Source: an uncultured Bacilli bacterium (GTDB lineage: Bacteria > Bacillota_I > Bacilli_A > RF39 > UBA660). From it: a stretch of 42,904 bases of DNA. The translations under genes and the position numbers were made by a program. The notes below the pieces were generated by a model that saw nothing but the letters and a program-made list of their open reading frames with translations, did no database searches and had not been told where the DNA came from. The stretch is taken from the NCBI GenBank assembly GCA_944363855.1, contig CALVVM010000080.1, positions 1-42,904 on the forward strand. Reading direction: 5' to 3'. Within the stretch, counting starts at the first letter, position 1. The number at the start of each line of letters is the position of its first letter. Shown piece by piece: positions 2,498 to 25,789 of the stretch.

Positions 2498-4355
2498 AAA
2501 AATATTCCTTCTTTATATATACCATTATTAAAGATATATCTGCTGGATTTACTCCACTAATTCTTAAAGCTTGTCCTATTGATGTAGGTCTTATTTGATT
2601 TAATTTTTGTTTTGCCTCACTTGCAAGATTATGTATTTTATCATAATCTATATCTTCTGGTATTTTTTTATTATCTAAATCTACCATTTTATTAGCTTCT
2701 TCTACTGCTTTTTTAATATATCCTTCATATTTAATATTTATTTCTACTTGCTCTAGTATTTCATTTGAATATTCTTTTTCTATATATTTAGTTAAATTTT
2801 CTAATTTTACTTCTGGTCTTTTTATAAAATTATATAAACTTATCCCATCTTTTAATTCAGGTAAACCAATACTTGTTAAATATTCATTAGTTTCAACTTT
2901 TGGAGTAAGTTTTATATTTTTTAAAGATTCTGTTAATTCTTCTATTTCTTTTTTCTTATTCTCAAACTTATCATATCTTTCCTGATCTACTAAACCAACT
3001 TGATAACCATAATTTCTAAGTCTCATATCTGCATTATCATGTCTTAAAAGTAATCTATATTCAGCACGAGAAGTTAATAATCTATAAGGATCTATTATTC
3101 CCTTAGTTACTAAATCATCTATTAAAACTCCTATATATGCTTCATTTCTTTTAAGTATTAAAGGTTCTTTTCCTTCTAGTTTTAATGATGCATTTATACC
3201 AGCAATTAAACCTTGACAAGCAGCTTCTTCATATCCACTTGTTCCATTTATTTGCCCAGCAGTAAATAGATTTTCTATTACTTTAGTTTCTAATGATTGT
3301 TTTAATTGTTTTGAATCAATAGCATCATACTCTATAGCATAAGCATATTTATTTATTATTGCATTTTCTAACCCTGGTAAACTATGCACCATTCTTTCTT
3401 GTACATCCTTAGGCATACTTGTTGAAAAACCTTGAATATAAATATCATCATAATAAATACTTTCTGGCTCTAAAAATAATTGATGTCTTTCTTTATCAGC
3501 AAATCTAACTACCTTATCTTCTATAGATGGACAATATCTTGGACCTACACCTTTTATATCATCAAGACCACCATACATACTTGATTTATTTAAATTTTCT
3601 CTTATTATTTCATGTGTTTCTGGTTGAGTATAAATCAAATGGCATGGTATTTGTTTATCTTTGTCATAATAAATTTCATTATCAAAACTAAATGTCCAAT
3701 TTTTATCATCACCATATTCTACTTTAGTTTTTGAATAATCTATTGAACTTTTTTCTATTCTTTGAGGAGTACCTGTTTTAAGTCTTATAATATTAAATCC
3801 ATATTCTTTTAATTTTTCACTCAAATGATTACTAGGCTTTTCTCCATGTGGACCTTGTCTAGTTCTAGTATCTCCTATTAATATATCTGCTTTTAAGTAT
3901 GTTCCTGTTGTAAGTATTACTGCATCACTATATATTTCTATTCCATCTTCTAACCTTATACCTTTTATCTTATTATCTTCAACAATTAAATCTTCTACTA
4001 TTGCTTCTTTTATTTCTAAGTTAGGTGTGCTATTTAATGTTTCAATCATATTTTTAGGGTATGTTATTTTATCGGCTTGAGCTCTTAGTGCCCTAACAGC
4101 AGGACCTTTTGCACTGTTAAGCATCTTTATTTGTAGTAAACTTTTATCAGCATTACGACCCATTTCTCCACCTAATGCATCTATTTCTCTTACTACAATA
4201 CCTTTCGCACTTCCACCTATTGATGGATTACAAGGCATGTCTGCTATATTTTTTATATTACCTGTTACAAGTAATGTTTTATGTCCTTTACGAGCACAAG
4301 CTAAACTTGCTTCACACCCAGCATGACCTCCACCTACTACTATAATTTCATACAT
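2484..4355 (-). CDS. mnmG: tRNA uridine-5-carboxymethylaminomethyl synthesis enzyme MnmG (GidA)
   Basis: FAD-dependent partner of MnmE in modifying U34 of tRNAs that read codons ending in A or G. The N-terminus MYEIIVVGGGHAG is the FAD dinucleotide-binding fold, followed by CNPSIGG, KGPAVRALRAQADK and the C-terminal TSRAEYRLLLRHDNADMR motif. I start at 4355 (ATG with AGGTGAT upstream), because the ten extra residues upstream match nothing in the family. That gives 623 aa, the usual length. It is first in the mnmG-rsmG pair, while mnmE lies about 1 kb upstream as a separate unit. Confidence 0.96.
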   Translation of the reverse strand: MYEIIVVGGGHAGCEASLACARKGHKTLLVTGNIKNIADMPCNPSIGGSAKGIVVREIDALGGEMGRNADKSLLQIKMLNSAKGPAVRALRAQADKITYPKNMIETLNSTPNLEIKEAIVEDLIVEDNKIKGIRLEDGIEIYSDAVILTTGTYLKADILIGDTRTRQGPHGEKPSNHLSEKLKEYGFNIIRLKTGTPQRIEKSSIDYSKTKVEYGDDKNWTFSFDNEIYYDKDKQIPCHLIYTQPETHEIIRENLNKSSMYGGLDDIKGVGPRYCPSIEDKVVRFADKERHQLFLEPESIYYDDIYIQGFSTSMPKDVQERMVHSLPGLENAIINKYAYAIEYDAIDSKQLKQSLETKVIENLFTAGQINGTSGYEEAACQGLIAGINASLKLEGKEPLILKRNEAYIGVLIDDLVTKGIIDPYRLLTSRAEYRLLLRHDNADMRLRNYGYQVGLVDQERYDKFENKKKEIEELTESLKNIKLTPKVETNEYLTSIGLPELKDGISLYNFIKRPEVKLENLTKYIEKEYSNEILEQVEINIKYEGYIKKAVEEANKMVDLDNKKIPEDIDYDKIHNLASEAKQKLNQIRPTSIGQALRISGVNPADISLIMVYIKKEYFYEQR

Positions 4356-6778: not shown

Positions 6779-7373
6779 ATTTTTCTACATATCTAATTAC
6801 TACATATCTTTCTGGTTCTTCACCGAAACTTTCAGTTTCAATATTGTAGTATTCACTAGATACTGAATGAACTATTCTTCTTTGATATGAATTCATTGGA
6901 TCTAATTTTACTTCATCTTTTGATTTCATAACATCATTTATTATATTTTTAATATTTTTTTCAAAGAATCTTTCTCTTTTTACTTTGTAATTAGAAGCAT
7001 CTAAATTAACTTTTACATTGAATTTAATTTGATTACTAAGTGCTTGTCTAAGTAATACTTGTAAAGATTTTAATGTTCTTCCTTCTTTTCCAATTAATAT
7101 TGGATTATTATTTGAAAACATTTTAGCAGTAAATATTCCATCTTCTTCTGTTATTTCAATACGTGCTTTAACTCCCATATCTGTAGTAGTTTTAGTTAAA
7201 AATTCATTTATATATTCTTCTACATCTGATTTTTTAACTACTTCCATATGATATGCATTTTCTTCTTCATATTCTTTTGTTAAGATTTCATTATTATAAA
7301 CATCTAATTCTTCTAAACATTTAATTCTACAGTTTTCTTCTGTATCACTTTCAAATTTATAAACTTTTACCAT
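6777..7373 (-). CDS. jag: RNA-binding protein Jag/KhpB (SpoIIIJ-associated)
   Basis: Jag (KhpB) binds RNA and affects cell division and elongation in Gram-positive bacteria. The sequence has an N-terminal Jag-type region (1-50), a KH domain with GKEG (95-98) and a C-terminal R3H domain with RRIVH (165-169). It follows yidC by one base, the conserved gene order. The 198 aa are typical of a short form. Confidence 0.92.
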   Translation of the reverse strand: MVKVYKFESDTEENCRIKCLEELDVYNNEILTKEYEEENAYHMEVVKKSDVEEYINEFLTKTTTDMGVKARIEITEEDGIFTAKMFSNNNPILIGKEGRTLKSLQVLLRQALSNQIKFNVKVNLDASNYKVKRERFFEKNIKNIINDVMKSKDEVKLDPMNSYQRRIVHSVSSEYYNIETESFGEEPERYVVIRYVEK

Positions 7374-7374
7374 A

Positions 7375-8370
7375 TTATTTATTTCCTTTCTTAACTAGTA
7401 AGTTTTGACCAATCCCTAATAAACTATTAACCACCCAATATATAATGATTGCAACTGACATACTAAATGAAGTTACAAATATCATTACTACCATTATATT
7501 AAACATCATATTCATTTGTTTAATTTGATTATTTGGTTGAGCTGTTTTATTCATTTTAAATGAGAAATATGTAACAAGTCCAACTATTACTGGTAATATT
7601 AAGTAATACCAATCACCTTGTCCTGCAGCTGCAAGTGGTGTAATTCCCATATGAAAACCTAAGAACTTACCTTCAAAAAGAAGTGGTAAACGATATAAAG
7701 CTTCATAGAATGCAAAGAATATAGGAATTTGTAAGAAACTAGTTAAACATCCAGACATAGGATTTATTTTATATTCTTTATAAACAGCCATCATTTCATT
7801 AGATTTCATCATCATTGATTCTTGATCTGTTTTACCTGCATATTTTTTTTCAATCTTATTTAATTTAGGTTGAACTTTTTTTATTACTTCACTTTGTTTT
7901 AATGATTTATATGTTAATGGGAATAATACTAATTTAATTAATATTGTTATTAATACGATTGCTAAACCATAATTTTTAACTAATTTTCCTAATTGTACAA
8001 TTACCCAAGCTAAAGGTTTAACAAATATACTTGTCCAAATTGATTCATATCCACCTGATGTAATAGACATTTCAGTACATACAGGTAATTCTTCTATATC
8101 TAGAAGTTTATCAACTTGTTTTTTATGTTCTTTTTTAGATATTTCTCCATCTTCCAATAATTTATCTAAATCATTTTTCTTTTCTTCTATTGCTTCTTCG
8201 TATGTATCTTTTAAATCTACTGGTTTACATAAAATATTTTCTACTAATGTTTGTTTTGTTGTTTCATCTTGGATTACTTTTCCTTCTGCATCTTTAAATT
8301 GCTTAGTACATCCAGTAATTAAAAACATTAAAGCAATTACTACTATTAATAATTTTTTATTTTTTTTCAT
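7375..8370 (-). CDS. yidC: Membrane protein insertase YidC (lipoprotein form)
   Basis: Inserts membrane proteins alone or with SecYEG. It has a lipoprotein signal peptide ending in LITGC (Cys21), an extracellular acidic stretch (about 35-95) and the conserved five-helix core starting near residue 118, including the Gram-positive-type core without the large periplasmic domain. Length 331 aa. Its start overlaps the end of rnpA by 14 bases and jag follows at once. B. subtilis calls this gene spoIIIJ, which is also needed for sporulation. No MifM-like sensor gene is visible nearby. Confidence 0.95.
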   Translation of the reverse strand: MKKNKKLLIVVIALMFLITGCTKQFKDAEGKVIQDETTKQTLVENILCKPVDLKDTYEEAIEEKKNDLDKLLEDGEISKKEHKKQVDKLLDIEELPVCTEMSITSGGYESIWTSIFVKPLAWVIVQLGKLVKNYGLAIVLITILIKLVLFPLTYKSLKQSEVIKKVQPKLNKIEKKYAGKTDQESMMMKSNEMMAVYKEYKINPMSGCLTSFLQIPIFFAFYEALYRLPLLFEGKFLGFHMGITPLAAAGQGDWYYLILPVIVGLVTYFSFKMNKTAQPNNQIKQMNMMFNIMVVMIFVTSFSMSVAIIIYWVVNSLLGIGQNLLVKKGNK

Positions 8371-8879: not shown

Positions 8880-8923
8880 TCGTTACACCTCCATCACTTA
8901 TAATTTTTCTGCTTGCTTTATAG

Positions 8924-8952: not shown

Positions 8953-9394
8953 TTATTTTTATAGGGTTTTTTATTTTAGTTGTAATTAATATTTAGTAGT
9001 ACCCTACTTTTTTATAAAATTTAATATTTCCCAGGAATTAATTAAAAAATATAAGTTATACACATTTTTGTTTATAAATTAGATGTGGACAAAAATTATG
9101 CACAAAATAATACACTTATTAACATTTAATATAAAATGTTTACATGTTTTATTTAATAAAGTTATGCACAAAAATGTCAATAAATGTCGAATTGTGTTAT
9201 AATATAATAAAAAAATTGTTTAAAAGTGGTGTTTATAAGTAAAAATTAGGATGTTTATAATTAATTATTAAAAAATTGTCATGTTCATAACTAAAAAAAT
9301 ATTGCTTTATTTGATTTATACACACATTTTTGTTGTTTTTACTGAAAAAATATTGTAAAATATAGGTGTATAAGTTTTAAGGAGGTTAAGCGGT
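8953..9394. other. Replication origin region upstream of dnaA (oriC part 1)
   Basis: Gene-free AT-rich stretch between the divergent rpmH and dnaA. DnaA-box-like 9-mers: TTATACACA (9056-9064), TGTGGACAA (9084-9092, reverse), TTATGCACA (9096-9104 and 9162-9170), TTATACACA (9316-9324) and GGTGTATAA (9365-9373, reverse). Three more distant direct copies of TGTTTATAA or TGTTCATAA start at 9230, 9252 and 9282. A Noc-like site with two mismatches is at 9026-9039. Strand switch, dnaA context and box cluster all mark an origin. Confidence 0.85.
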
Positions 9395-10750
9395 ATGGAT
9401 TTAAATAACATTTGGAATTCATTTCTAGAGAAAATAAAAGTTCAAATATCAGATATTGCTTTTGAAACTTGGTTCTCAGAAACTAAATTAATAAGTTTAA
9501 ATAATAAAACAGCTACTGTTTTAGTTCCTTATCATATACATAAAAAGAATTTGAGTGAAAACTATAGTGATATAATAGAAGAAGTTTTTACTGAAATTAC
9601 TGGTAGTAACTTTAAATTCAATTATGTTATTGAAGAAGAAGTAGAAAATAACTTAACTGAAGATAATCAAATAATAGGTGTTCCTAATAATAATGATTTA
9701 TATGAATCTAATCTAGATCCTAAATATTCATTTGAAAATTTTATGATCGGACCTAGTAATAAGTTTGCAGCTACTAGTGCTTTAGCGGTTGCTGAACAAC
9801 CTGGTAAAATGTATAATCCTTTATTTATATATGGATCAAGTGGGTTAGGGAAAACACACTTAATGCACTCAATAGGTAACTATATAATAAAGAATAGTAA
9901 TAAAAAAGTTTTATATATAACTTGTGATAACTTTGTATCTGATTTTGTTGACATCTGTAGAAAGAATGCAGGTTCTAACAATATGGATGCTATTAAACAA
10001 TTTAAAAATAAATATAGAGATATAGATGTATTAATAATTGATGATATCCACAATTTAGTAGGAGCTACTAGTGCTCAACAAGAGTTTTTCAACACATTTA
10101 ATGAACTATATAATAATGAAAAGCAAATAATTATATCATCAGATAGATCACCAGACGATATTAAAAAATTAGAAGAAAGATTAAAAACAAGATTCAACTG
10201 GGGACTTCAAGTTAATATATTACCTCCAGATTTTAAACTTAGAATGTCTATATTAAATAAGAAAATAGAAAATAATGAACTATCTGGAGTTGTTCCTGAA
10301 GATGTTAAAGAATATATTGCTAGTAATTGTGTAGGGGATGTAAGAAAACTAGAAGGCGCAATAACTCGTGTATTTGCTTACGCAACTATGATGAATGGTT
10401 CAGATATTACGATGGATTTAACAGTTGAAGCTTTAAAAGATTATTTTGTTAAAACTATTGTGTCTAAAAATAAAATGGATCAAGTAGTTCAAATAGTTTG
10501 TGATCATTATAATTTAACTAATGAAGAATTATTAAGTAAAAAAAGAAGTAATGATATAGCAATCCCAAGAATGATAGCTATGTATATATGTCGTGTATAT
10601 CTAGATGAAAATCTTACTAAAATAGGTATTCAATTTGGTGGTAAAAACCATACAACAGTTATGCACGCAGTTGATAAAATTAAAAAAGAAATAATAAAAG
10701 ATGATCATTTGAATGGAGAAATCCAAAAAATGATAAATGAAATTAGATAA
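9395..10750 (+). CDS. dnaA: Chromosomal replication initiator protein DnaA
   Basis: AAA+ initiator that binds DnaA boxes and opens the origin. Domain I is at 1-80 and a short linker at about 81-110. The AAA+ domain has Walker A GSSGLGKT (147-154) and Walker B VLIIDDIH. The C-terminal DNA-binding domain carries the signature GGKNHTTVMHA. Length 451 aa. AAGGAGG at 9379-9385 sets the start. DnaA boxes lie on both sides of the gene, so autoregulation is likely. Confidence 0.98.
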   Translation: MDLNNIWNSFLEKIKVQISDIAFETWFSETKLISLNNKTATVLVPYHIHKKNLSENYSDIIEEVFTEITGSNFKFNYVIEEEVENNLTEDNQIIGVPNNNDLYESNLDPKYSFENFMIGPSNKFAATSALAVAEQPGKMYNPLFIYGSSGLGKTHLMHSIGNYIIKNSNKKVLYITCDNFVSDFVDICRKNAGSNNMDAIKQFKNKYRDIDVLIIDDIHNLVGATSAQQEFFNTFNELYNNEKQIIISSDRSPDDIKKLEERLKTRFNWGLQVNILPPDFKLRMSILNKKIENNELSGVVPEDVKEYIASNCVGDVRKLEGAITRVFAYATMMNGSDITMDLTVEALKDYFVKTIVSKNKMDQVVQIVCDHYNLTNEELLSKKRSNDIAIPRMIAMYICRVYLDENLTKIGIQFGGKNHTTVMHAVDKIKKEIIKDDHLNGEIQKMINEIR

Positions 10751-12140: not shown

Positions 12141-12599
12141 ATGGAAGATTATGAAATAAGCTCAGCAACTTTAGCTATAGTGCCTTTGGGTGAAGAAGTA
12201 TCTAAAGTTTATGAAGAAGAAGATGAATATATTATTCAAAAATCTGCTAATAGTATTATTAAAGATAATTGTGAGTTTTATGGCAGTTCATATGAAGGTA
12301 GATGTATTGGTACTAAAACTTTAACTGGTATTAAAACAAAATTTCCAATAATAATAGAAGAAAGTAGAAATATTATATTTTTTCCAACTTCATCAACTAG
12401 AACTAAACAAAGTACTTGGATAGCACTAAATAAAATTAAAGAAATATCAAAAAAAGAACATCAAAATAGTGAAATTTTATTTAAAAATCAAGATACTTTA
12501 GATTTAGATATTTCAGTTAACTCATTAGAAAATCAAATTGTTAGAGCTACTATGTTGAAATCTAAATTATATGAAAGAAAATTAGAAGAAAAAAACTAA
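12141..12599 (+). CDS. ComK-family competence transcription factor
   Basis: Similar to ComK, the master activator of DNA-uptake genes in Bacillus. Matching segments in order: EDYEISSATLAIVP (2-15, ComK has ESYEVNGATIAVLP), YGSSYEGR (47-54), FPTSSTR (81-87), W93 and NSLENQIVRA (127-136, ComK has NSFENQVYRT). At 152 aa it stops where the C-terminal multimerisation and degradation tail of ComK (192 aa in B. subtilis) begins. It sits between dnaN and recF, where Bacillus has the S4-domain gene yaaA. It has its own GGGGG ribosome-binding site and a terminator. Family call is good; a role in competence is inference. Confidence 0.8.
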   Translation: MEDYEISSATLAIVPLGEEVSKVYEEEDEYIIQKSANSIIKDNCEFYGSSYEGRCIGTKTLTGIKTKFPIIIEESRNIIFFPTSSTRTKQSTWIALNKIKEISKKEHQNSEILFKNQDTLDLDISVNSLENQIVRATMLKSKLYERKLEEKN

Positions 12600-15767: not shown

Positions 15768-18311
15768 ATGGAAAATGAAGAAAAAGTAACAGAAGAATTA
15801 GAAGAAAAACAAGAATTTGGTGGAACATTCCATGAAAGAGATAGTTTATCTGAAAATAACATAGTAAATGAAGTAAGAACTTCTTTCCTTGATTACTCAA
15901 TGAGTGTTATTACATCTCGTGCTATTCCTGATTTAAGAGATGGTTTAAAGCCTGTTCATAGAAGAATTTTATGGTCTATGTATGAAGAAGGTAATACACC
16001 GGATAAACCACATAAAAAATCTGCAACAACAGTTGGATACGTTATGGGACATTACCACCCACATGGAGATTCATCTATTTATGATGCAATGGTTCGTTTA
16101 GCTCAAGATTTTAACCAAAGATATATGTTAGTTGATGGACATGGTAACTTTGGTAATATTGAAGGTGATGGCGCTGCTGCTTACCGTTATACAGAAGCAA
16201 GACTTGCTAAAATATCATTAGAACTTTTAAGGGATATTAAAAAAGATACTGTTGATATGGATTGGAACTTCGATGTAACAAGTAAAGAACCAAAAGTTTT
16301 ACCATCAAGATTTCCTAATGTTTTAGTTAATGGATCAATGGGTATTGCAGTTGGTATGGCAACTAACATTCCACCTCATAATTTAGGTGAAGTAATAGAT
16401 GGTTGTATTGCATATATAGATAATCCTGATATAGATACTAATGGATTAATGCAATATATTAAAGGGCCAGATTTTCCAACAGGTGGTATAATATTAGGAA
16501 ATTCAGGTATTAAAAAAGCATATGAAACAGGTCGTGGATCAATTACTATTAGAAGTAGAGCTATGATAGAAGAAGAAGGAAATCATAGTAATATAGTAAT
16601 TACTGAAGTTCCATATGGAGTAAATACTTTAGAATTAAAAAACAAAGTTGCAGAACTTGTTCATAATAAAGTAATAGAAGGAATAGCTGACTATCATACA
16701 GATTTAAAAGAAGGAGTAAAAATAACAATAACTTTAAAAAGAGATGCTAATCCACAAGTAGTATTAAACAATTTATATAAACATACCAATTTTCAAGTAA
16801 ATTATGGAATTATTTTATTAGTTATTGATGATGGAACACCAAGAACTTTAGGTCTTAAAGATATAATATCTAAATATATTGAACATCAAAAAGAAGTAAT
16901 TATAAGAAGAACTAAATTTGATTTAGAAAAAGCAGAAAATAGAGTTCATATATTAGAAGGTTATAAAATTGCTCAAGATAATATAGATGAAGTTATTAAG
17001 ATAATTAAATCTGCTAAAAGTGATATAGAAGCAAAAGAAAAATTAATGTCTAGGTTTGGATTAACTGAAATTCAAACAGATGCTATATTAGAATTAAAAT
17101 TAAGACGTTTAACAGGTTTAGAAAGAGAAAAAATAGAAGCAGAACTTGCTGAATTATTGAAACTTATTGCTGAATATAAAGAAATTTTAGCAGATATGAA
17201 TAAAGTATTAGAAATTATTAAAAATGAAATGCTTGAAATAAAAGAAAAATATTCAGATGAAAGAAGAACTTCAATAGATATGACAGCAATTGATTATATT
17301 GATGATGAATCATTGATTCCTGTTGAAGATTTAGTTATAACTTTAACTAATAAAGGATATATTAAACGTGTTGAAAGTGATACTTATAAAGCTCAAAATA
17401 GGGGTGGTGTAGGTATTAAAGGTATGACAACAAATGAAGAAGATTTTGTTGAAAATATTCTTTCAATGACAACACATGATTACATTATGTTCTTTACTAA
17501 TAAAGGTAAAGTATATAGAATGAAAGGTTATGAAGTTCCTTTATTCAATAGACAATCAAAAGGATTACCAATAATTAACTTACTACCATTAGAAAAAGAT
17601 GAAAAAGTTAATGTTATGTTAAAAGCAACTCCAAAAGATGTTCCAGCATATGTTGTACTTTGTACACAAAAAGGAATAATTAAGAGAACTAAAATAACAG
17701 AATTTGAAAATATTAGAACTAATGGTAAGATAGCTATTACATTAAAAGATGATGATGAACTTATTTCAGCTAAAATTACTGAAGGAAATTCAGAAATTTT
17801 AATTGCTTCTTCAAATGGTAGATTAATTAGATTTAATGAAAATGAAGTAAGAATCATGGGAAGAAGTGCATCAGGCGTTAGAGGTATTGATGTAGGAGAT
17901 GGAATAGCTGTTGGTATGGAAATTTCTTCAGAAAAAGATGATGTATTGGTTGTAACTGAAAAAGGTTATGGTAAAAAGACAAATATAGATCAGTATAGAA
18001 TGACACATAGAGGAAGTAAAGGTGTTAAAGCACTTAATGTTACAGAAAAGAATGGAAATATAGTTTCATTTAAAATAGTAAATGGGGAAGAAGATTTAAT
18101 GATTATTACAGATAGTGGAATAATTATTAGATTACCGCTTTCTCAAGTATCATCTACTGGCCGTGTTGCTCAAGGTGTTAAATTAATTAACTTAAAAGAT
18201 AATCAAAAAGTAAGTACAATAGCAATTATTGAACATAATGAAGAAGAATCAGAAGTAGAGGAACAACAAACAATAGAACAAGAAGTAGAAAATAATAATA
18301 GTTCTGAATAA
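15768..18311 (+). CDS. gyrA: DNA gyrase subunit A
   Basis: DNA-cutting subunit of gyrase. The catalytic tyrosine is Tyr141 in AAAYRYTE. The quinolone-binding region reads GDSSIYDAM with Ser102 and Asp106 at the positions of E. coli Ser83 and Asp87, the susceptible form. The C-terminal beta-pinwheel starts near 510 and carries the GyrA box QNRGGVG, so this is gyrase, not topoisomerase IV. Length 847 aa with an acidic Glu/Gln tail. AGGAGGTG precedes the ATG. The gene ends in a terminator that is itself a parS site. Confidence 0.98.
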   Translation: MENEEKVTEELEEKQEFGGTFHERDSLSENNIVNEVRTSFLDYSMSVITSRAIPDLRDGLKPVHRRILWSMYEEGNTPDKPHKKSATTVGYVMGHYHPHGDSSIYDAMVRLAQDFNQRYMLVDGHGNFGNIEGDGAAAYRYTEARLAKISLELLRDIKKDTVDMDWNFDVTSKEPKVLPSRFPNVLVNGSMGIAVGMATNIPPHNLGEVIDGCIAYIDNPDIDTNGLMQYIKGPDFPTGGIILGNSGIKKAYETGRGSITIRSRAMIEEEGNHSNIVITEVPYGVNTLELKNKVAELVHNKVIEGIADYHTDLKEGVKITITLKRDANPQVVLNNLYKHTNFQVNYGIILLVIDDGTPRTLGLKDIISKYIEHQKEVIIRRTKFDLEKAENRVHILEGYKIAQDNIDEVIKIIKSAKSDIEAKEKLMSRFGLTEIQTDAILELKLRRLTGLEREKIEAELAELLKLIAEYKEILADMNKVLEIIKNEMLEIKEKYSDERRTSIDMTAIDYIDDESLIPVEDLVITLTNKGYIKRVESDTYKAQNRGGVGIKGMTTNEEDFVENILSMTTHDYIMFFTNKGKVYRMKGYEVPLFNRQSKGLPIINLLPLEKDEKVNVMLKATPKDVPAYVVLCTQKGIIKRTKITEFENIRTNGKIAITLKDDDELISAKITEGNSEILIASSNGRLIRFNENEVRIMGRSASGVRGIDVGDGIAVGMEISSEKDDVLVVTEKGYGKKTNIDQYRMTHRGSKGVKALNVTEKNGNIVSFKIVNGEEDLMIITDSGIIIRLPLSQVSSTGRVAQGVKLINLKDNQKVSTIAIIEHNEEESEVEEQQTIEQEVENNNSSE

Positions 18312-18315
18312 TATT

Positions 18316-18345
18316 AAAGGAATGTTTCACGTGAAACATTCCTTT
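18316..18345 (+). terminator. gyrA terminator built around parS site 1
   Basis: A 30-base perfect palindrome, AAAGGAA + parS + TTCCTTT, starts five bases after the gyrA stop and runs into six T. The RNA would form a 15-base-pair stem, so one sequence serves as terminator and ParB site. Confidence 0.8.
18323..18338. promoter_or_regulatory. parS site 1
   Basis: Perfect TGTTTCACGTGAAACA, the consensus ParB (Spo0J) binding site. Embedded in the gyrA terminator with outer arms AAAGGAA / TTCCTTT. Confidence 0.95.
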
Positions 18346-18387
18346 TTTATATTTTATTTAATAAATAAAAAAAATTATAACTATCAA

Positions 18388-18403
18388 TGTTTCACGTGAA
18401 ACA
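18388..18403. promoter_or_regulatory. parS site 2
   Basis: Perfect TGTTTCACGTGAAACA with outer arms TATCAA / TTGATA extending the palindrome. Confidence 0.95.
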
Positions 18404-18448
18404 TTGATATAAACTAAATAAATTGTTTTAAAATATATTAAATTTATA

Positions 18449-18464
18449 TGTTTCACGTGAAACA
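18449..18464. promoter_or_regulatory. parS site 3
   Basis: Perfect TGTTTCACGTGAAACA with outer arms ATTTATA / TATAAAT. Left border of the duplicated SRP RNA unit. Confidence 0.95.
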
Positions 18465-18477
18465 TATAAATAAAGTA

Positions 18478-18507
18478 TTGATATTTTTTTTATTTATAAT
18501 ATATTAT
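18478..18507 (+). promoter_or_regulatory. Promoter of SRP RNA copy 1
   Basis: -35 TTGATA (18478-18483) and -10 TATTAT (18502-18507), spacer 18. A TATATT one step upstream is an alternative. Confidence 0.55.
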
Positions 18508-18511
18508 TAAT

Positions 18512-18590
18512 GCACAACATTTATATTCAAATCAGGTCAGAGTTGGAAGACAGCAGCCTTAAGAATCTCTAAATGTGTGTGTTTTTTTTT
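18512..18590 (+). ncRNA. ffs: SRP RNA (4.5S type), copy 1
   Basis: RNA of the signal recognition particle, partner of Ffh. The diagnostic domain IV is present: AGGTCAGAGTTGGAAGACAG with a GGAA tetraloop, then CAGCC on the 3' side. The ends pair as GCACA-ACATTTA with TAAATGT-(G)TGTGT, and a T run follows. At about 79 nt it is the short form without the Alu domain found in Bacillus scRNA, and close to the Mycoplasma size. Its place before tadA-dnaX is roughly as in Bacillus. Confidence 0.9.
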
Positions 18591-18611
18591 GTTTTTGTAA
18601 TAAAACACTAA

Positions 18612-18627
18612 TGTTTCACGTGAAACA
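18612..18627. promoter_or_regulatory. parS site 4 (junction of the duplication)
   Basis: Perfect TGTTTCACGTGAAACA, but with mismatched outer arms: the left CACTAA is that of site 5 and the right TATAAAT is that of site 3. Confidence 0.95.
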
Positions 18628-18640
18628 TATAAATAAAGTA

Positions 18641-18671
18641 TTGATATTTTTTTTTATTTATAATATATTAT
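18641..18671 (+). promoter_or_regulatory. Promoter of SRP RNA copy 2
   Basis: -35 TTGATA (18641-18646) and -10 TATTAT (18666-18671), spacer 19, one base longer than in copy 1 because of an extra T. Confidence 0.5.
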
Positions 18672-18675
18672 TAAT

Positions 18676-18754
18676 GCACAACATTTATATTTGAATCAGG
18701 TCAGAGTTGGAAGACAGCAGCCTTAAGAATCTCTAAATGTGTGTGCTTTTTTTT
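18676..18754 (+). ncRNA. ffs: SRP RNA (4.5S type), copy 2
   Basis: Same RNA as copy 1. It differs by TTTGAATC for TTCAAATC in the 5' arm and by a terminal TGTGC in place of TGTGT, so its closing stem GCACA / TGTGC is fully Watson-Crick. The domain IV apical loop is identical. Its own promoter and T-run terminator suggest it is expressed. Confidence 0.9.
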
Positions 18755-18776
18755 ATTTTTTGTAATAAAACACTAA

Positions 18777-18792
18777 TGTTTCACGTGAAACA
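18777..18792. promoter_or_regulatory. parS site 5
   Basis: Perfect TGTTTCACGTGAAACA with outer arms CACTAA / TTAGTG. Right border of the duplicated SRP RNA array. Confidence 0.95.
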
Positions 18793-18882
18793 TTAGTGAA
18801 AAAACAACTAAATATAATACAAAAAAACAAAAATATTAAAATTTATATAATTTTATAATATAATATAGATAGAAAATATCAA

Positions 18883-18898
18883 TGTTTCACGTGAAACA
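18883..18898. promoter_or_regulatory. parS site 6
   Basis: Perfect TGTTTCACGTGAAACA with outer arms ATCAA / TTGAT. Confidence 0.95.
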
Positions 18899-18967
18899 TT
18901 GATGAAATAAACACTAAAAAATATAATTATTAATAAATAAATTAAAATAATTTTATTTAAATAAATT

Positions 18968-18981
18968 ATTTCCTGGGAAAT
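18968..18981. promoter_or_regulatory. Near-perfect Noc-binding site beside parS site 7
   Basis: ATTTCCTGGGAAAT, one mismatch from the Noc consensus ATTTCCCGGGAAAT, 9 bases from parS site 7. Confidence 0.6.
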
Positions 18982-18989
18982 AAAAAATA

Positions 18990-19005
18990 TGTTTCACGTG
19001 AAACA
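18990..19005. promoter_or_regulatory. parS site 7, abutting the tadA ribosome-binding site
   Basis: Perfect TGTTTCACGTGAAACA ending 2 bases before the GGAGG of tadA. It lacks extended outer arms. Confidence 0.95.
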
Positions 19006-19017
19006 TTGGAGGTTAAA

Positions 19018-19371
19018 ATGAATGAAAATTATATGAATCTAGCAATTCAACAAGCTAAAAAAGCTTATAAATACGAGGAAGTACCGGTAGGTGCTATAAT
19101 AGTTAAAAATAATAAAATAATTGCTATATCAAAAGCATGTAAAAAAATAAAAAATTGGAGATTAGATGATTGTGAAATTTATGTAACAATGGAACCATGT
19201 ATGATGTGTTGTGGCGCAATAGAACAATCAAGAATAAAAAAAATAATATATGGTGTTAAAAATGAAAATTATGGGTCTACTGAATTGTTAAAAAATGTAG
19301 AAATTATTTCCCAAGTTTGTGAAAAAGAATGTAGAGAATTAGTTCGATCATTCTTTAAAAAAAGAAGATAA
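19018..19371 (+). CDS. tadA: TadA-like tRNA adenosine deaminase lacking the catalytic HAE segment
   Basis: TadA converts A34 to inosine in tRNA-Arg(ACG). Here EVPVGAIIV (21-29), WRLDDCEIYVTMEPCMMC (47-64, with zinc ligands Cys61 and Cys64) and the C-terminal helices are intact. However, residues go from NKIIAIS (32-38) directly to KACKKIKNWRL. About 20 residues are missing, and they would hold the HAE motif with the zinc-binding His and catalytic Glu. The reading frame is kept. As written, the enzyme cannot be active. I start at ATG 19018 with GGAGG upstream, not at the earlier TTG. Length 117 aa against about 150-160. Gene position before dnaX is as in Bacillus. Confidence 0.85.
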   Translation: MNENYMNLAIQQAKKAYKYEEVPVGAIIVKNNKIIAISKACKKIKNWRLDDCEIYVTMEPCMMCCGAIEQSRIKKIIYGVKNENYGSTELLKNVEIISQVCEKECRELVRSFFKKRR

Positions 19372-24940: not shown

Positions 24941-25789
24941 ATGTCACAAAAAAGTTATGATAATAGTCCAACTTTATATCTTATTCCAACTCCAATAGGA
25001 AATATGGAAGATATAACAATAAGAGCGATTAATACATTAAAAATGGTTGATGTAGTTTTCTGTGAAGATACTAGAGTAACTGGACAATTATTAAAATATT
25101 TAGATATAAGTAAAAAGTTAATATCTAGTCATAATTATAACGAATCAGGTAATAAAGAAAAGTTGTTAGAGTATTTAAGTAGTGGAAGTAATGTAGGGTT
25201 AGTTAGTGATAGAGGAACACCTATAATAAGTGATCCAGGATATGAACTTGCTAAAGTAGCTATAGAAGAAGGTTATAATGTGGTAAGTTTACCAGGAGCT
25301 ACTGCTTTAATACCAGCTCTAACTTCATCAGGTATTAGTCCTATGCCATTTTACTATTATGGATTTTTGAATAGTAAAGATAGTGCTAGAAGGAAAGAGT
25401 TAGAATTTTTAAAAAATATAGATGCTACACTAATACTTTATGAAGCTCCACATCGCATAAATAAAACATTAAAAGATTTGGAAAATATTTTGGGAAATAA
25501 TCGTAAAATATGTATTTCCCGGGAAATAACTAAAAAGTATGAAGAAATATATAGGGGAACAATAGGTGAACTAATAGAGCAAAAAAACGAATATAAAGGA
25601 GAACTTGTAGTAGTAGTAGAAGGTAATAAGGAAACTACTGAATACAAAAATTTAACAGTTGAAGAACATGTTAAACTATATATAGAAGATGGTAAAAGTT
25701 CAATGGATGCTATTAAGATAGTTGCTAAAGAACGTGGTATGAAAAAAAGTGAAGTATACGATATTTACCACAATATAGAAAAGAAGTGA
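24941..25789 (+). CDS. rsmI: 16S rRNA (cytidine1402-2'-O)-methyltransferase RsmI
   Basis: Methylates C1402 of 16S rRNA together with RsmH. The family blocks are LYLIPTPIGNMEDIT, FCEDTRVTGQLLKY, LVSDRGTPIISDPGYELA and SLPGATALIPAL. I start at 24941, where GAGGTGAT is ideally placed, giving 282 aa. Ends with TGA. Inside the gene is a perfect Noc-binding palindrome at 25515-25528. Confidence 0.95.
   Translation: MSQKSYDNSPTLYLIPTPIGNMEDITIRAINTLKMVDVVFCEDTRVTGQLLKYLDISKKLISSHNYNESGNKEKLLEYLSSGSNVGLVSDRGTPIISDPGYELAKVAIEEGYNVVSLPGATALIPALTSSGISPMPFYYYGFLNSKDSARRKELEFLKNIDATLILYEAPHRINKTLKDLENILGNNRKICISREITKKYEEIYRGTIGELIEQKNEYKGELVVVVEGNKETTEYKNLTVEEHVKLYIEDGKSSMDAIKIVAKERGMKKSEVYDIYHNIEKK
25515..25528. 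promoter_or_regulatory. Perfect Noc-binding site within rsmI
   Basis: ATTTCCCGGGAAAT, flanked by T and A to make a 16-base palindrome (from 25513 as TATTTCCC). It is an exact match to the B. subtilis Noc site. A half-site GGGAAAT lies 29 bases upstream (25492-25498). Confidence 0.8.

Follow-up and report, generated by a model that had tools for sequence, protein, structure and literature searches.

What purpose is served by seven identical parS sites packed between gyrA and tadA near the chromosomal origin of an uncultured Bacilli bacterium, and for which protein or proteins would they act? Two paralogues with supposedly separate jobs come into consideration. ParB separates origins, while Noc tethers DNA to the membrane and thereby prevents the division septum from forming over it.

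The window is the whole stretch of DNA analysed, 42,904 nucleotides in length. Within it the 16-mer TGTTTCACGTGAAACA occurs seven times with zero mismatch, starting at 18323, 18388, 18449, 18612, 18777, 18883 and 18990, whereas in dinucleotide shuffles of the sequence matches average 0.13 and seven are never reached. The sites form a 683 bp block that occupies the gap between the end of gyrA (15768-18311, + strand) and the start of tadA (19018-19371, + strand). The tadA product scores 88.8 bits against NF008113, below the cut-off of 150, and its placement between gyrA and dnaX is kept in relatives. The last site, parS7 (18990-19005), lies immediately upstream of the tadA ribosome-binding site. 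The start of dnaA is at 9395 and the GC-skew minimum at 8909, with DnaA-box-like sites at 9056, 9096, 9162 and 9316 (spanning 9056-9324) between rnpA and dnaA; oriC thus lies at about 8.9-9.4 kb of the window, 9 kb from the parS block. A sequence-only reading of the window had listed these seven sites, their neighbouring genes and a distance of about 9 kb from dnaA, and each of these agrees with our analysis. It had seen no other perfect copy, and none is found in the 43-kb window even with up to three mismatches allowed. Beside the origin of this 1.1-Mb genome, in the interval between dnaN and recF, we also find a gene for a ComK-family protein (PF06338, 148.8 bits) at 12141-12599.

The same reading called the block centromere-like, proposed a search of the whole genome for the 16-mer, and held that many further sites or the lack of a ParB homologue would speak against it. 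A pattern search of the assembly (1,088,370 bases) with up to two mismatches reveals the seven sites and none elsewhere; like all our genome-wide statements this rests on pattern searches, and a few parS sites were possibly missed because the assembly comprises 86 contigs and is 92.5% complete. Three ParB-domain proteins are encoded in the genome. On contig C51 a ParA of 261 aa (217-1002 of locus L022) is followed directly by a ParB of 294 aa (983-1867) that has R173, I179, R184 and G201 at its specificity positions. R173 and G201 are the residues that define parS binding in ParB (PMC7383237), and the C51 protein therefore carries the parS-type signature. An SMC condensin is also encoded (TIGR02168, 989 bits, over the cut-off, with neighbouring frames joined). 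The locus thus combines consensus parS sites near oriC with a parS-type ParB, an adjoining ParA and SMC, and because these proteins are encoded the block is very probably the ParABS centromere of the chromosome. We considered whether the C51 parA-parB genes adjoin the left end of the window contig and rejected this; there is no sequence overlap, and a sister species has no parAB within 4 kb of noc. The gene order rsmG-noc-parA-parB is present in two other genera. The ParA and ParB of contig C49 (633-2235 of locus L007) constitute a third pair, perhaps originating from a mobile element. This ParB has non-standard recognition residues, and we set it aside since its helix-turn-helix residues, compared by eye, match neither the parS nor the NBS class and it sits in another ParAB pair.

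The system shares consensus parS, ParA and ParB, SMC, a position near oriC and parS-type ParB residues with Soj-Spo0J-parS of B. subtilis and ParABS of Caulobacter. It differs in having all its sites in one 683-bp intergenic block, whereas in those species they are distributed over many kilobases. Comparison with sister genomes, also proposed in the earlier reading, shows that the compact arrangement is kept. Exact parS is found in 15 of 16 genomes of the genus, with two to nine copies per genome in one compact group, and one genome (G013) has an extra copy on another contig. At the family level the exact 16-mer is present in 84 of 144 genomes and absent from 60. In each of the 30 family loci inspected (L025-L054) the neighbours are gyrA and/or tadA-dnaX, and the cluster keeps its gyrA-tadA location across the family.

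The sequence-only reading suggested that the layout is special, which holds only in part. The single compact block near oriC is confirmed, but we rejected the idea that a compact cluster is unusual in itself. Searching named genomes for three parS within ~170 bp returns at least 118 stretches from many phyla. Among the matches listed, 102 clusters lie outside the gyrA-tadA context, and 20 of those 102 contain seven or more parS in 700 bp, in a sample that was selected by density. Published extracts describe 22 parS in 3 kb in Myxococcus xanthus (PMC3899335, PMC3778016), likewise a single compact array of many parS near oriC. Because of these clusters in many phyla and in M. xanthus, a compact cluster is ordinary in kind. 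Compared with what those extracts describe, the window block is denser (seven in 0.68 kb), lies in the gyrA-tadA gap, contains SRP RNA genes and includes a Noc-binding site (NBS); no Noc site is reported for M. xanthus in the same extracts.

The NBS, together with two SRP RNA genes and a duplicated unit, was absent from the earlier reading. It is a match with one mismatch, TATTTCCTGGGAAATA (18967-18982), positioned between parS6 and parS7 and 23 bp start-to-start before parS7, and it is the only NBS in the block. A perfect match, TATTTCCCGGGAAATA, lies at 25513-25528 within a gene of the tetrapyrrole-methylase family (RsmI-like), and occurs at the same position in several members of the genus. 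Two further matches each have two mismatches. One (9025-9040) lies between rnpA and dnaA next to the DnaA boxes, where relatives L181, L182 and L186 also have an NBS. The other (1824-1839) is at the 3' end of rsmG, upstream of a noc-like gene, and two sister genomes have a match with a single mismatch at this place. These four are the best matches to TATTTCCCGGGAAATA in the genome (0, 1, 2 and 2 mismatches), and all lie in the window, within 24 kb around oriC; the spread over much of the chromosome, with a gap near the terminus, that is typical of Noc sites is not seen in this genome. Genomes of the genus have one to four NBS matches each, and the good matches checked are located at rsmG beside noc, in the rnpA-dnaA gap, in the parS block or in the RsmI-like gene. 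A 14-bp NBS core is present at least once in 124 of 144 family genomes, mostly one to five times, and a reversed control pattern in none; a few genera are richer, one having 22, and some also carry NBS away from parS.

The noc-like gene (135-1676, - strand) encodes a ParB paralogue of 513 aa, with CTPase and helix-turn-helix domains in residues 1-201, a Pro-rich linker and a conserved C-terminal segment. Its specificity residues are Q173, K179, N184 and R201, which are of NBS type; Q173, K179/184 and R201 define NBS binding. By sequence, its closest solved structures are those of Noc proteins. The best family match is TIGR04285 (Noc) at 291.2 bits, and because this is under the NCBIfam cut-off of 315 we call the protein Noc-like. 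There is no room for an N-terminal amphipathic membrane helix, either in the window protein or in 29 relatives from the family, since their conserved core lies close behind the likely start codon. In the window gene only 17 residues separate the start from the conserved PNRFQPR motif; an AGGAGG ribosome-binding site precedes its ATG, and seven codons further upstream there is a stop in the same frame. The N-terminal helix is necessary in B. subtilis Noc, and was predicted in every homologue examined in that study (PMC4331003). The linker of about 250 residues is also a departure from the known Noc-NBS system, and a long linker is common to the 29 relatives, whose open frames are of 433-675 codons. 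A similar C-terminal segment is found in all relatives but one; it has no Pfam match and may be a dimerisation domain.

The resemblance to Noc-NBS nucleoid occlusion therefore lies in the NBS sequence, in Q173, K179 and R201, and in the location of the noc-like gene beside rsmG, and S. aureus shares the NBS near dnaA. The number and distribution of sites are different. Noc of B. subtilis has about 70 NBS around most of the chromosome (PMC4331003) and that of S. aureus has 41 loci, of which only one lies outside the origin-proximal half (PMC5540599), whereas here there are only four good sites, within 24 kb of the origin, one of them in the parS block.

Is the closeness of NBS to parS general? 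Loci fetched by parS alone contain 44 NBS matches, and shuffled sequences none. Taking the NBS that lie within a cluster plus 300 bp, with the window locus added, 28 of 41 start within 45 bp of the start of a parS, where random placement in the same span gives 10.8 +/- 2.8 and none of 20,000 simulations reaches 28; because related genomes and tandem copies are counted separately, the significance is overstated to an unspecified degree. Exact close composites of parS and NBS are present in 51 of the 290 family genomes, which represent 41 of the 143 genera, and the reversed control pattern in none. With 239 of the 290 genomes having no such composite, and exact parS absent from 60 of 144 as noted above, NBS adjacency is frequent rather than universal. 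The composite is found in 13 of 394 genomes across the class, all from the same family; a search made at phylum level reached that class only. We found no description of parS-NBS adjacency in the open-licence papers searched. The parS cluster is not new in itself, and it is the NBS within the cluster, here and in many related gut bacteria, that looks new.

What we observe is the sites, the encoded proteins with their specificity residues, a conserved location and the proximity of parS to NBS; from these we infer how ParB and Noc would bind, slide, recruit SMC in the case of ParB, and perhaps act together. The seven parS would be loading sites for the C51 ParB, which on binding would close as a CTP clamp and then slide onto the adjacent DNA. 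ParA would move the ParB complex, the complex would recruit SMC, and the newly copied origin region would be separated first. At the NBS in the block and at the three others within 24 kb, the Noc-like protein would be loaded as a second clamp on this origin domain. In this lineage the ParB and Noc complexes would form next to each other, and Noc would not mark the chromosome as a whole. We consider it likely that the gyrA-tadA gap is a ParB/ParA/SMC centromere with a Noc-like clamp loaded on the same origin domain. We put forward more tentatively, as plausible yet somewhat short of an even chance, the further proposal that the centromere is an array combining sites for two CTP-clamp proteins, with ParB at parS and an anchorless Noc at adjacent NBS, satellite-like in some genera and growing by recombination at parS. 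In that case Noc would serve this family of gut bacteria as another centromere or origin-domain protein, and not as a membrane-tethering occlusion factor.

The main alternative is that the block serves ParB only, the NBS match being a relic or a weak, functionless site, and that the two kinds of site are close from sharing the scarce intergenic space near the origin. Clusters that lack NBS are indeed common, and genus and family loci L010, L015, L020 and L031 carry parS with no NBS in the block. The null in our proximity test, however, was already confined to the cluster plus 300 bp, and still gave 10.8 where 28 were observed. Moreover, the ratio of NBS to parS is one to one with a near-fixed offset in the alternating arrays L108, L061, L164, L198 and L226; L108 has nine alternating units of ~75 bp each (7098-7751), and L061 has eight of ~64 bp each (3560-4049). 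We therefore think a plain parS cluster rather unlikely. On the composite ParB-Noc reading, a family with NBS beside its centromeric parS and with a Noc that lacks the helix would provide a direct test of the role of Noc without membrane binding, and a way to ask how a single loading region accommodates two sliding clamps.

Many of the sites are embedded in longer palindromes. The palindrome extends by 6 bp per side at parS2 (18388-18403), 7 bp at parS3 (18449-18464), 6 bp at parS5 (18777-18792) and 5 bp at parS6 (18883-18898), and parS1 (18323-18338) lies within a perfect palindrome of 30 bp (18316-18345). Arms of at least 5 bp are present at 41 of 89 parS in the genus (46%), against 4.4 (~5%) expected when the flanks are re-paired. 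Corresponding values are 52 of 194 in the family sample, with 5.2 expected, and 49 of 550 outside the family, with 4.6 expected. The arm sequences fall into 33 types among 88 sites, so that the recurring feature is pairing and not sequence, and on this ground we rejected a sequence preference of ParB as the source of the extended palindromes.

Paired arms raise the possibility that in the gyrA-SRP RNA-tadA region the palindromes act mainly in RNA, as hairpins or transcription terminators, and that ParB binding is secondary. The excess of arms in the genus and their variety of sequence would fit this. Just past gyrA, parS1 with its arms has a 13-bp stem, a 4-nt loop and a T-rich tail, TTTATATTTT, and looks like the gyrA intrinsic terminator; the 901-bp region has five terminator-like matches against 0.1 expected. 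Yet a terminator would not need an invariant 16-bp core. A T-run on the transcribed strand is found at parS1 only, with those of parS2, 5 and 6 on the other strand, and extended arms are missing from about half of the parS. At the parS clusters of other phyla, in a different context, arms of at least 5 bp likewise exceed the null. We regard a role mainly in RNA as very unlikely.

The SRP RNA genes lie within a tandem duplication. Units 18449-18611 and 18612-18776, opened by parS3 and parS4 (18612-18627) respectively, agree in 159 of their 165 aligned positions, and each contains a small SRP RNA gene on the + strand (Rfam RF00169, gathering 40), copy A at 18506-18591 with 54.1 bits and copy B at 18670-18755 with 57.5 bits. 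That the repeats, chiefly the doubled SRP RNA unit, are an artefact of short-read mis-assembly is highly improbable; the assembly is fragmented into 86 contigs and the window is the sole one of 21 loci with two SRP RNA genes, the other 20 tested having one, but 6 of the 165 aligned positions, indels among them, distinguish the two units, so this is not one sequence laid down twice, and parS clusters of similar form occur in independent assemblies.

The flanks of parS4 are those of a hybrid. Its left flank matches that of parS5 at 28 of 30 positions and its right flank that of parS3 at 28 of 30, with 12 of 30 and 9 of 30 for the alternatives. Either slippage or an unequal crossing-over that involved parS3 and parS5 would produce just this arrangement; the event gave the block its second SRP RNA gene. 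Arrays like L108 could grow by this simple route, through recombination or slippage at parS. Other loci have arrays of parS alone, with 13 sites at ~38.6 bp (L154, 2-480), ten at 55 bp (L056, 5384-5894) and eleven at 42 bp (L040, 1375-1810). The satellite-like arrays share the gyrA-tadA position but differ in repeat period from genus to genus. The family also illustrates rapid change of a bacterial centromere at one fixed location, akin to the satellite repeats of eukaryotic centromeres. In the relative L046 (74-656), a DnaA-box-like motif, TGTGGA(T/C)A, precedes each of three parS.
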